Assembly: GCF_014651715.1 (NCBI RefSeq)
Contig: NZ_BMXK01000002.1
Location: forward strand, 1 to 64,000
DNA length: 64,000 bases
DNA from: Zhihengliuella salsuginis
GTDB lineage: Bacteria > Actinomycetota > Actinomycetes > Actinomycetales > Micrococcaceae
Reading direction: 5' to 3'
Below are positions 3,277 through 25,590 of this stretch, in pieces. Below the pieces are notes generated by a model that was not told where the DNA came from, did not search any database, and saw only the letters and a program-made list of their open reading frames with translations. Positions within the stretch are counted from its first letter, which is position 1, and every line of letters begins with the position of its first letter. Position numbers and translations under genes: made by a program.

Positions 3277-3330
3277 GAAAGGCAGGTGTATACGGCCCAC
3301 GCCGTGTTGACGATGCGACGAAGGGAAGTC

Positions 3331-4008
3331 ATGAAGGCCCGGATCCTGGTGGTTGACGATGACGACGCGCTGGCGGAGATGATCGGCATCGTCCTCCGTA
3401 ATGATGATTTCGAGCCGTTCTTCTGCAATGACGGCGCCAAGGCACTGGACGCGTTTCGCGACGCGAAGCCGGACCTGGTGCTGCTGGACTTGATGCTCCC
3501 CGGCGTCGACGGCATCGAGGTGTGCCGGCAGATCCGCGCGGAGGACGACGTCCCGATCGTGATGCTGACGGCCAAATCGGATACCGCCGACGTCGTCCGC
3601 GGCCTCGAATCGGGTGCCGACGACTACGTGCCGAAGCCGTTCAAGCCGGCCGAGCTCATCGCGCGCGTGAAGGCGCGCCTGCGACCCGGCGAGAAGCACG
3701 CCCCGGAGACGCTGCACATCGCAGACTTGTCGATCGACGTGGCCGGTCACACGGTGACGCGGGGCGGGGAGCCGATTTCGCTGACGCCCCTGGAGTTCGA
3801 GCTGCTCGTGGCCCTCGCCCGCAAGCCGTGGCAGGTCTTCAGCCGCGAGCTGCTGCTCGAGCAGGTGTGGGGCTACCGCCATGCCGCCGATACGCGGCTC
3901 GTCAACGTGCACGTCCAGCGTTTGCGGTCCAAGGTCGAGATCGACCCTGAGAAGCCGGAGGTCGTCATGACCGTGCGCGGCGTCGGCTACAAGGCGGGGA
4001 CCAACTGA
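3331..4008 (+). CDS. mtrA: Two-component response regulator MtrA
   Basis: A 225-residue OmpR/PhoB-type regulator. The receiver domain (about 3-115) has the acidic cluster VVDDDD at 7-12, the phospho-acceptor Asp53 in LLDLMLPG and the conserved Lys in VMLTAKS. The winged-helix domain (about 128-224) contains ISLTPLEFELLVALARKPWQVFSRE and ends in TVRGVGYKAG; both are nearly the same as in Mycobacterium MtrA (228 residues). In actinobacteria MtrA controls wall hydrolases, division and osmotic response. The start is set by AAGGGAA just upstream; a longer reading from 3286 has no ribosome binding site. It heads mtrA-mtrB-lpqB. A possible MtrA-site array is present before the LysM/SLT gene of this window. 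Confidence 0.97.
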   Translation: MKARILVVDDDDALAEMIGIVLRNDDFEPFFCNDGAKALDAFRDAKPDLVLLDLMLPGVDGIEVCRQIRAEDDVPIVMLTAKSDTADVVRGLESGADDYVPKPFKPAELIARVKARLRPGEKHAPETLHIADLSIDVAGHTVTRGGEPISLTPLEFELLVALARKPWQVFSRELLLEQVWGYRHAADTRLVNVHVQRLRSKVEIDPEKPEVVMTVRGVGYKAGTN

Positions 4009-21718: not shown

Positions 21719-23176
21719 ATGGCGATCATCACGGAGGCCATCCGGCCCTTCGCGGATTTCGGCCCGGGCGACGAGGACTGGCTGCACCTCCTGGTGGGGG
21801 ACTGGCAGCTGGTCTCTGATCTGGCCTTCGCCGATCTGGTGCTCTGGCACCCCGGGCCGGATGGCTCCTATATCGCCTTGGCGCATGTTCGTCCCTCCAC
21901 GAGTCATACGGTTTTCCACACGGACTTCGTGGGCGAGCGCATCCGCAAGGACCTCAAGTCGCTCGTCGACCGTGCTTGGCACACGGGCGAATTCCAGGAG
22001 GCGAAAGGGGACGGATCGATGCAGATCGAAGCCGTCCCCCTGCGACGGGGAGGGCGGACTCTCGCCGTCTTGACGAGCCACATGGATCTGGGAGGAACGC
22101 GACTCCCGTCACGCTTGGAGATCACCTACCGGCAGTGCGCTCGGGACATCCTCGGGATGTGCCACCAGGGCATCTGGCCGGATTTCGCCTCGCCCACGGG
22201 TTCCCGGCGCGGTGCGCCCCGCGTCGGGGACGGGATGATCCGCCTCGATCCGAACGGTGTGGTCGAGTACGCGAGCCCGAACGGGGTTTCGGCGTTCCGA
22301 CGTCTGGGCGGCAGCGACAGCCTGGAAGGGCGGTCCCTGCCGGAACTGGCGACGGACCTGTTGAAGGTCCGGAGGATGTCGGACGAGGCGCTGCCTCTGG
22401 TCCTCTCCGGCAAGATGCCCTGGCGCACGGAGATCTCGGCCCACGGCGTCACACTGTCGTTGCGGGCCATACCCCTGCGGGACGGAGCGACCCGGTACGG
22501 CGCCGTGCTGCTCTGCCGCGACGTGACCGAGCTGCGTCGTCGTGAGATGGAATTGGTGACCAAGGATGCGACCATCCGCGAGATCCACCATCGAGTCAAG
22601 AACAACCTGCAGACCGTTGCGGCGCTGCTGCGGATGCAGTCGAGACGCATGAAGAGCGACGAGGGCAAAGCCGGCCTCGAGCAGGCGATGCGGCGAGTGG
22701 CGACGATCGCCCTCGTGCACGAGACGTTGTCCCAGGGGCTGACTCAGAACGTCGAGTTCGACGAACTGATCGACCGCCAGTTCCGTCTGGCCGCCGAGGT
22801 GTCCTCGCCGGGCCAGGTCGTCCGTACCGAGCGGACGGGAACTTTCGGTGCGCTGCCGAGCGAGATCGCCACACCCCTTTCGCTGGTGATCAACGAACTC
22901 GTGGCCAACGCGGTCGAGCACGGCCTCGGCGAGAAGGACGGAACCGTCTGCCTCGACGCCGAGCGCGCCAACGACGAGACCGGGCGCGAGATGGTCAACG
23001 TGACCATCACGGACGACGGGGTCGGCATCACCGAGGAGCCCGGGACCAACGGCCTCGGCTTGCAGATTGTCCGGACCCTCGTCACGAGCGAGCTCGGTGG
23101 CGAGATCCGATGGGAGCCCCGCAAGAGCAAGGGGACCCGCGTGACGGTCACACTGCCGGTCGACCAGGCAGCGTAG
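21719..23176 (+). CDS. PdtaS-type sensor histidine kinase
   Basis: A 485-residue soluble kinase. N-terminal GAF-like domain (about 20-150), PAS domain (about 170-275, MIRLDPNGVVEYASPNG to LCRDVTELRRREMEL), then a HisKA_2 box IREIHHRVKNNLQTVAALLRMQSRR (His290/His291) and an ATPase domain with NELVANAVEHG, DDGVGI and NGLGLQIV. This is the layout of mycobacterial PdtaS (Rv3220c), which phosphorylates the antiterminator PdtaR. No PdtaR gene and no whiB gene lies next to it here. No membrane helix is seen. GGAGG 5 nt before the ATG lies inside the gdh coding end. Confidence 0.9.
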   Translation: MAIITEAIRPFADFGPGDEDWLHLLVGDWQLVSDLAFADLVLWHPGPDGSYIALAHVRPSTSHTVFHTDFVGERIRKDLKSLVDRAWHTGEFQEAKGDGSMQIEAVPLRRGGRTLAVLTSHMDLGGTRLPSRLEITYRQCARDILGMCHQGIWPDFASPTGSRRGAPRVGDGMIRLDPNGVVEYASPNGVSAFRRLGGSDSLEGRSLPELATDLLKVRRMSDEALPLVLSGKMPWRTEISAHGVTLSLRAIPLRDGATRYGAVLLCRDVTELRRREMELVTKDATIREIHHRVKNNLQTVAALLRMQSRRMKSDEGKAGLEQAMRRVATIALVHETLSQGLTQNVEFDELIDRQFRLAAEVSSPGQVVRTERTGTFGALPSEIATPLSLVINELVANAVEHGLGEKDGTVCLDAERANDETGREMVNVTITDDGVGITEEPGTNGLGLQIVRTLVTSELGGEIRWEPRKSKGTRVTVTLPVDQAA

Positions 23177-23259: not shown

Positions 23260-25002
23260 CTAGAACTTTTTCTGGTGCGCCTTGACGGACTTCACGTAGT
23301 CCTTGGTGTCGTCGTACATTCCATTGCGCCGAACCGAGCCCTGCCCCTGGTAGTACGAGGCGATGCCGTCCTCGAAGGTGTCGGATGTGCGCTGCAGGGC
23401 CGCGATGATGGCGACGCCGGCGACGACGTTGTCATGCGGATTCAGCAGGTCCAGCTTCCGCCCGACGAGAGTCGAAGCCCACTCGCCCGACGACGGGATG
23501 ACCTGCATGGCGCCGATGGCGTTGGCAGGGGAGACCGCCGTCGGATTGAAACCGGACTCCTGGTACGCATGCGCGAGTGCGAGTGACGGGTCCACGCCGA
23601 ACTGCCGTGCCGTCGAGGTGATGATGCTGCGCATCTGCGAACGGCTCGGAAGATCGCGCGAGAGCAGGAGCGCCTTGTTCTCGTTGGCGCTCTTGACCGT
23701 CGACTCCGGGTACTTGTAGTGGAGGAACGTCGAGGGGACCAGCTGACCGGCCGCCTCCGTCGACCCCGACCCCGGGACCTTCAACTTCTTTCCGGGATGG
23801 ATGACGGACGTCTTCTTGAGACCGTTCGCGGCGAGGAGCTTGCTCAGCCCGATGCTGTACTTGCCGGCGATCCCGGAGAGGGTCTCACCCGAGGCGACCG
23901 TGTGCGTTCGCGACGACGAGCCCGAGGAGGACGACGACGAGGAGCTGGACGACGAGCTGGTGGAGCTGGAGCCCGCGGTCAGGCGGAGCTTCTGGCCCGG
24001 GTAGATGGTCGTGCTGCTCTTGAGACTGTTGAGGTCGAGCAGTTTGGACAGCGACAGGCCGTTGCCGGCCGCGATGCCGGAGAGGGTGTCGCCGTTCGAC
24101 ACCGTGTACGACTTGGCGGATGCCGAAGAGGACGACGACGAGGAGCTGGACGACGAGCTGGTGGAGCTGGAGCCCGCGGTCAGACGGAGCTTCTGGCCCG
24201 GGTAGATGGTCGTGCTGCTCTTGAGGCTGTTGAGATCGAGCAGTTTGGACAGCGACAGGCCGTTGCCGGCCGCGATGCCCGAGAGGGTGTCGCCGCTCGA
24301 CACCGTGTACGACTTGGCCGACGCTGAAGAGGACGACGTGCTGGACGAGGTCGATGCCGCGGCTTCGACCTTGCTGGTGGCGACGATCACGCGCTGGCCG
24401 GGATGGATGATCGCCGACTTCTTGAGCTTCGGGTTCATCGCGAGCAGCTCCGAGAGCGACACGTCGTAGCGAGCAGCCACACCGTAGAGCGTGTCGCCGT
24501 GCTCGATGGTGTAGTGCTTCGTGGTCCCGCTGGAGGCAACCTTCGTCGACGTGCTGCTGCTCGACGAGCCGCCGGCGAGCTTGATCTTCTGCCCCGGACG
24601 GATCACGGCGGAGCTCGACAGGTCGTTGGCCTTGAGGATCGTGCTGAGCGAGACGCCGGCGCGCGCCGCGATGTGCGAAAGCGTGTCGCCGGATTCGACG
24701 GTCACGGATTTCGGGGCCGCTGCCGGAAGGACGCTCCCTAGCTGCGAGGGGACCTGGGCGGCCACCAGGTGGGCGGCGATTCGATTCTGCGCGGCGGCGA
24801 TGTTCGCCGCCGTCGCGGTCTTGGGAGCCATCGTCTGGGCTGGGGCGGGGACCGGTGCTGCCTCTGCCGGAGCCGCGGCGCCAAAACCGGTCAGCATGAC
24901 GGCCGGAAGAGTCGCAGCAGCAACGGTGCCCGAAGCTAGGCGGCTTCGGCTCGTGCGGCCGGTTTCGGTCATTCGTGCGCTCTCGGCGCGGGGCTGTGGC
25001 AT
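23260..25002 (-). CDS. Secreted lytic transglycosylase with five LysM domains
   Basis: A 580-residue exported wall enzyme. Signal peptide about 1-48 (Arg-rich start, hydrophobic VAAATLPAVMLTGF, cleavage near AEAAP). LysM domains at about 99-143, 163-207, 231-275, 298-342 and 367-409, separated by Ser/Thr linkers. The C-terminal SLT domain (about 455-575) has the catalytic Glu482 in AYQESGFNP and the GAMQVIP and YYQGQGSV motifs. LysM 3 and 4 are almost identical, from a 201-bp tandem duplication. It should cleave glycan strands between MurNAc and GlcNAc. ATG 25002 is chosen for AGAGGA 5 nt upstream; 24972 is the alternative. An MtrA-like repeat array lies in its leader. Confidence 0.93.
   Translation of the reverse strand: MPQPRAESARMTETGRTSRSRLASGTVAAATLPAVMLTGFGAAAPAEAAPVPAPAQTMAPKTATAANIAAAQNRIAAHLVAAQVPSQLGSVLPAAAPKSVTVESGDTLSHIAARAGVSLSTILKANDLSSSAVIRPGQKIKLAGGSSSSSTSTKVASSGTTKHYTIEHGDTLYGVAARYDVSLSELLAMNPKLKKSAIIHPGQRVIVATSKVEAAASTSSSTSSSSASAKSYTVSSGDTLSGIAAGNGLSLSKLLDLNSLKSSTTIYPGQKLRLTAGSSSTSSSSSSSSSSSSASAKSYTVSNGDTLSGIAAGNGLSLSKLLDLNSLKSSTTIYPGQKLRLTAGSSSTSSSSSSSSSSSSGSSSRTHTVASGETLSGIAGKYSIGLSKLLAANGLKKTSVIHPGKKLKVPGSGSTEAAGQLVPSTFLHYKYPESTVKSANENKALLLSRDLPSRSQMRSIITSTARQFGVDPSLALAHAYQESGFNPTAVSPANAIGAMQVIPSSGEWASTLVGRKLDLLNPHDNVVAGVAIIAALQRTSDTFEDGIASYYQGQGSVRRNGMYDDTKDYVKSVKAHQKKF
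23925..24335 (-). repeat. 201-bp tandem duplication encoding LysM plus Ser linker
   Basis: The unit 24005-24205 is followed by a close copy beginning at 24206 (near-identical for about 130 bp, with few substitutions) and preceded by a partial copy that covers the Ser-rich linker (about 23925-24004). It encodes a 67-residue unit, LysM plus a linker of about 17 Ser/Thr. The GACGACGACGAGGAG stretch (Ser codons on the other strand) is itself simple-sequence-like. Confidence 0.85.
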
Positions 25003-25051: not shown

Positions 25052-25096
25052 CGTGATACTCCTGTGACTCGTGTTGCGAGTGTGACTCTTGTGAAT
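25052..25096 (-). promoter_or_regulatory. Candidate MtrA-binding direct repeats
   Basis: Read on the minus strand, five 9-bp units follow without gap: ATTCACAAG, AGTCACACT, CGCAACACG, AGTCACAGG, AGTATCACG. Two contain GTCACA exactly, two are close. Mycobacterium MtrA binds direct repeats of a GTCACAgcg-like 9-mer before cell-wall and replication genes. The array lies 50-95 bp upstream of the LysM/SLT ATG; mtrA is in the same window. Confidence 0.5.
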
Positions 25097-25122
25097 CTAC
25101 ACCACGAACTGTGGACGATGAA
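25094..25122 (-). promoter_or_regulatory. Possible promoter of the LysM/SLT gene
   Basis: On the minus strand TTCATC (weak -35) is followed by 17 bp and TAGATT (-10, 25099-25094). The -10 touches the first unit of the repeat array, so if this promoter is correct the array lies downstream of it. Confidence 0.35.
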
Positions 25123-25236
25123 ACCGTTATCAAGGAGAAATTAAAGGACGGGCGTGTCGCCGGCGGGCGGGTGTATTCGCTGGCCCGGGTGCGCGGGCGC
25201 GCGATTTAACGGTTCACCGTGTGGCACCCTTGGTAC

Positions 25237-25590
25237 GTGAGTAATCTTGAGAACCTTGTAGCCGACTGGCTTCCCCTGCCCGACGTCGCGGACGCATTGG
25301 GCGTCGACATCCGAAAGGTGCACAGTCTGATTCGCGACCGGGCGCTCGTCGAATACCGGATCGGCGACCGGAGGATTCGCGCTGTTCCATCGGCCTTCCT
25401 CAAGGACGGGCAGGTGCTGGACAGCCTCAAAGGGACAGTCACGGTCCTGTCGGACTCCGGGTTCGACGACGATGAACTGATCCGTTGGCTGTTCACCGCT
25501 GACGATTCCCTGCCGGGCAGGCCGATCGATGCGCTGCGCGAGGGGCGGAAGACGGAGATCCGGCGCCGCGCCCAGGCAGCAGGCTTCTAA
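25237..25590 (+). CDS. Rv2175c-type DNA-binding protein
   Basis: A 117-residue protein with an N-terminal helix-turn-helix (about 10-50: WLPLPDVADALGVDIRKVHSLIRDRALV) and a conserved C-terminal part ending DDSLPGRPIDALREGRKTEIRRRAQ. This is the Rv2175c family of actinobacteria (DNA-binding, phosphorylated by PknL in Mycobacterium). GTG 25237 is preferred because family members start MSNLE-like; GTG 25219 is also possible and would be 8 nt from a TTTAAC box. No ribosome binding site precedes either. In Mycobacterium the gene lies near a prenyl synthase too, as here (convergent). Confidence 0.85.
   Translation: MSNLENLVADWLPLPDVADALGVDIRKVHSLIRDRALVEYRIGDRRIRAVPSAFLKDGQVLDSLKGTVTVLSDSGFDDDELIRWLFTADDSLPGRPIDALREGRKTEIRRRAQAAGF

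Follow-up and report, generated by a model that had tools for sequence, protein, structure and literature searches.

A conserved head-to-tail array of 9-bp repeats at the promoter of a LysM/SLT wall hydrolase gene: a probable operator for an Rv0500A-type regulator in Zhihengliuella salsuginis

The stretch of DNA analysed here (64 kb in full, hereafter the window) carries five direct repeats of 9 bp in front of a gene for a LysM/SLT wall hydrolase; which protein, if any, reads them is the question that the locus raises. A preliminary description had placed five gapless 9-mers at this promoter and proposed as their binder the response regulator MtrA, whose gene does lie within the window (Table 1). 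On the minus strand the array runs from 25096 to 25052, with five units and zero gaps, 50 bp upstream of the ATG (25002). The run scored 44.5, a partly circular figure because the unit matrix was trained on Micrococcaceae promoters that include this promoter and its relatives; the maximum over 40 block-shuffled copies of the 64-kb window was 16.4 (mean 12.5). Position and number of the repeats are as first described. The same scan of the window found no second run scoring above 18, and at periods of 8, 10, 11 and 12 bp the array site gave background-level scores. Support free of the circularity of the matrix comes from recurrence of the array at unrelated genes and in other families (see below). 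The repeat is genuine and conserved, of operator type, and lies at a wall-hydrolase promoter. The −10 candidate TAGATT, said to touch the first repeat, in fact runs into it by three bases.

Table 1. Positions of the array units, the −10 hexamer and the genes discussed (window coordinates)
Feature	Position	Strand	Remark
Array unit 1, ATTCACAAG	25088..25096	−	Shares its first three bases with the end of the −10 hexamer TAGATT; kept in relatives
Array unit 2, AGTCACACT	25079..25087	−	Inferred transcription start at about its first base
Array unit 3, CGCAACACG	25070..25078	−	
Array unit 4, AGTCACAGG	25061..25069	−	
Array unit 5, AGTATCACG	25052..25060	−	
−10 hexamer TAGATT	25094..25099	−	Overlaps unit 1 by three bases
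LysM/SLT hydrolase gene	23260..25002	−	Presumed controlled gene; secreted product of 580 aa; five LysM domains, and an SLT transglycosylase domain at the C terminus
Rv2175c-family wHTH gene	25219..25590	+	Divergent neighbour; rival binder
mtrA	3325..4008	+	Disfavoured binder

Upstream regions of orthologous LysM/SLT genes were read in the direction of the gene with the help of the adjacent Rv2175c-family gene (a MAFFT alignment in which overlapping windows had shifted by entire units was set aside). Arrays precede the LysM/SLT orthologues in nearly all Micrococcaceae and in several other families of Micrococcales. Almost all Micrococcaceae share one layout, GTGTA(A/G)ATTCACA followed by units in 9-bp steps. 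The 23 arrays of the Micrococcaceae type contain three to eight units each, 125 in total; the unit consensus is nGTMACAYn, with C at position 6 in every unit (125/125). Scores of the relatives' arrays at periods of 8, 10, 11 and 12 bp were mostly at background. Loss of the 9-bp period in related species had been named beforehand as an argument against the MtrA reading; the period is conserved, and it favours a protein other than MtrA. In 18 of the 23 LysM/SLT promoters the first base of a TANNNT hexamer lies at −3 with respect to unit 1; transcription would therefore begin about seven bases past the hexamer and proceed through the array.

Some features of the locus and its counterparts are recorded here in their own right. 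The closest named relative of the LysM/SLT gene is that of Kocuria polaris (80% identical in the best-matching segment), and at about 24000-24340 (minus strand) the gene contains two near-identical segments of LysM plus serine linker, probably a recent internal duplication. Convergent with it is a gene for a PdtaS-type histidine kinase (GAF_PdtaS and HisKA_2 domains; 21719-23176, plus strand). Most relatives have a single copy of the Rv2175c-family gene, adjoining the LysM/SLT gene. In several (L008, L013 and L016 among them) the hydrolase is followed by a reading frame judged by eye to encode a Ser/Thr kinase, an arrangement suggestive of insertion of the hydrolase gene between Rv2175c and pknL. 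One LysM/SLT promoter region (L304, genome G015) has a second 9-bp array, separate from the first and upstream of it, and in another family of the class (f47; L032, L033 and L060) short GTCACA-type 9-bp runs adjoin Rv2175c.

Presence of the array follows a gene for a small winged helix-turn-helix (wHTH) protein of the excisionase family. In a sample of 57 genomes with an Rv2175c gene, and with an array threshold chosen after the scores were seen, the array was present in 38 of the 41 genomes with the excisionase-family gene, against 1 of the 16 that lack it (Fisher p 5.5e-10, a value inflated by relatedness of the genomes). Where an SLT gene was detected adjacent, the counts were 23/24 with the regulator and 0/7 without. 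As Rv2175c alone gave a poorly resolved tree, phylogeny was reconstructed from MtrA, MtrB and Rv2175c. On this tree the regulator gene changes state about ten times; six well-supported independent pairs were on average 5.2 concordant and 0 discordant (sign test p about 0.03-0.06, with genome G036 counted as array-less). Exceptions are few: G136 has the regulator and no array, the LysM gene of G042 is located elsewhere, the array of G005 scores just below the threshold, and G036 has a weak run with neither a LysM gene nor the regulator. Another protein with the same distribution among genomes would also be compatible with these data.

In Z. salsuginis the excisionase-family protein (70 aa) is encoded outside the window, at positions 191412-191621 of another contig (C3:191412-191621), and followed by a gene for a 33-aa AURKAIP1-like product. 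It matches TIGR01764, the excisionase family, with 75 bits; its HTH_BldC score is 22 bits, against a cut-off of 77. In a structure search with its AlphaFold model (pLDDT 85) the first seven PDB matches were BldC-DNA complexes (best 6ama/6amk, TM by target up to 0.84), followed by mycobacteriophage Xis; the protein is thus predicted to fold like a head-to-tail binder of direct repeats. Two mycobacteria-like genomes (L311 and L312) have the gene order proC, HTH, 33 aa, galE-like, which corresponds to Rv0500, Rv0500A, Rv0500B, Rv0501 of M. tuberculosis. Rv0500A reportedly shows responses to pH, chloride and potassium. By sequence family and gene order we take the 70-aa protein as the orthologue of mycobacterial Rv0500A. 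The latter acts as a repressor, binds DNA and shifts the promoter of rv2390c (PMC6375644, where no operator sequence is given for it).

The promoter of the regulator gene carries units of the same spacing. Three or four 9-bp-spaced units lie on the core promoter of the regulator, between −35 and −10, in many Micrococcales, clearly so in several Micrococcaceae; the Z. salsuginis copy, TTTCACTTT CTCCCCACG GGCCACTAT CGTTACTCT, is a degenerate match (score 11.9). Short C-rich units at 9-bp spacing were also seen by eye at regulator promoters of mycobacteria-like and Streptomyces-like genomes (L311, L312 and L314), which suggests class-wide autoregulation.

Further sites were searched for with a profile of 34 four-unit windows, gap-free and with one invariant C per unit, since scanning with an IUPAC pattern was too noisy for claims about a regulon (in the Z. 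salsuginis genome the reversed-pattern control gave more hits than the pattern itself). With E-values up to 1, the whole genome yielded two sites: the array (E 6.5e-6, optimistic because one of the 34 profile windows comes from the array itself) and a site upstream of a RipA-like NlpC/P60 gene (C1:54249-54280, E 0.055), absent from the profile windows. About half of the genomes without the excisionase-family regulator gave no match to the profile. Among relatives, arrays were found upstream of genes for the RipA-like coiled-coil NlpC/P60 hydrolase, as well as GH25, M23 and PBP transglycosylase genes; a few further runs lie near genes without evident wall role. The genes nagB, metX, metY and a sugar-isomerase gene were considered as a target class and rejected; they are divergent neighbours of RipA-like genes. 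At the RipA-like promoters the array is situated upstream of the −10 element and in the opposite sense: TANNNT was found 9-10 nt from the array end in 14 of 25, and most others keep the same 9-bp phase. The longest array seen, with nine units, lies between nagB and a RipA-like gene (L154, genome G015), and a seven-unit array (L368, genome G013; score 42.6) has a second paralogue of the excisionase family a few hundred bases away.

How do other candidate binders fare against these observations? MtrA, the original proposal, has the core in its favour, as GTMACA resembles both GTCACAgcg and the C. glutamicum sequence (A/G)TAACAAT; furthermore, ripA, rpf and wall peptidases are among its targets elsewhere, with repressor sites near −10 (PMC3353115, PMC6265350). 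However, MtrA sites known in three lineages have a period of 11 bp, composed of 8-bp repeats with a 3-bp linker in C. glutamicum (PMC3353115), of 9 nt with a spacing of 2 in M. tuberculosis (PMC6265350) and of 6+5 in Streptomyces (PMC13189361), whereas the array at that period scores as background. Besides, each of the 59 relatives has a gene for an MtrA-like response regulator, and with three exceptions the product is a clear orthologue (57-100% identity), so that MtrA is kept where the array is missing, while the array tracks the excisionase-family wHTH. Upstream of mtrA in the window, neither a 9-bp nor an 11-bp GTNAC repeat was found. The binder is probably not MtrA, to which we leave a small chance; of the idea that MtrA represses this promoter, the repressor part is consistent with placement of the array on the −10 element and the choice of MtrA is not supported.

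Similarly improbable is binding by the Rv2175c-like wHTH protein, encoded divergently across the shared intergenic region. Its gene is adjacent, and it belongs to a DNA-binding family with a related wHTH fold, for which the literature examined gives no target site. This first alternative was dropped after the co-occurrence test: 18 of the 57 genomes have the Rv2175c gene and no array over threshold, and arrays are also found far from Rv2175c, at NlpC/P60, GH25 and M23 genes. True BldC, which binds contiguous 9-bp repeats head to tail with one protomer per 9 bp (PMC5859096), would account for the gapless direct repeats; still, the array unit differs from that of BldC, and no HTH_BldC match over the cut-off was found in any Micrococcaceae genome searched, that of Z. 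salsuginis included. BldC was therefore dropped as a very improbable binder. Neither protein fits, because Rv2175c is present in all rows of the comparison and BldC, absent from the Micrococcaceae searched, is present in several relatives lacking the array. It is hardly to be expected, either, that the repeats act in the transcript, as an RNA element: most of the array would be transcribed at the LysM gene, but at RipA-like promoters it is upstream of −10, in opposite sense and largely fixed phase, and therefore outside the mRNA. A CRP/GlxR site was rejected by inspection (GTG-CAC spacing of 6 vs 8).

We therefore favour the excisionase-family protein and consider it likely, from co-occurrence, fold and target genes, that the array is a multi-site operator through which the Rv0500A-type wHTH protein controls peptidoglycan hydrolases. 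Each monomer would occupy one 9-bp unit (nGTMACAYn), with monomers stacked head to tail as in BldC; the resulting filament would therefore lie over the −10 element and roughly +1 to +35 of the LysM/SLT gene, which it would repress by covering the −10 element and the first transcribed bases. The regulator would likewise repress its own gene. At the RipA-like promoter, where the array is on the −35 side and in opposite sense, activation would be as probable as repression. We are evenly divided on a broader proposal, in which this protein, conserved class-wide, would be dedicated to peptidoglycan hydrolases as their master regulator in Micrococcales, independent of MtrA and reading head-to-tail 9-bp arrays, with array length and polarity relative to −10 setting repression (LysM/SLT and its own gene) or activation (RipA-like). 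The array offers a concrete candidate operator and regulon for the Rv0500A type of regulator, whose binding sequence is not given in PMC6375644, and hints that wall-cutting enzymes of actinobacteria are under a second control that does not depend on MtrA. The head-to-tail binding mode of BldC would then also hold for a further family of very small wHTH proteins, on arrays that reach nine units.

Three known systems can be set beside the array. MtrA boxes likewise occur at wall genes as direct repeats built on a GTMAC-type core, and nGTMACAYn contains a core of the GTNAC/GTCACA type; they differ in the 11-bp period and in usually having two half-sites, and the phylogenetic pattern of MtrA does not fit the array. 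With Rv0500A of M. tuberculosis the proposed binder shares sequence family and the gene order proC-HTH-33 aa-galE, as seen in the mycobacteria-like genomes. A close parallel in architecture is offered by the BldC operators of Streptomyces (whiI and smeA-sffA), which are also contiguous 9-bp direct repeats, variable in number, each taken by one wHTH protomer; the predicted fold of the proposed binder is closest to BldC-DNA structures, whereas its family is TIGR01764, below the HTH_BldC cut-off, its putative unit is nGTMACAYn instead of AATTxxxx(C) (PMC5859096), and its targets would be peptidoglycan hydrolases.
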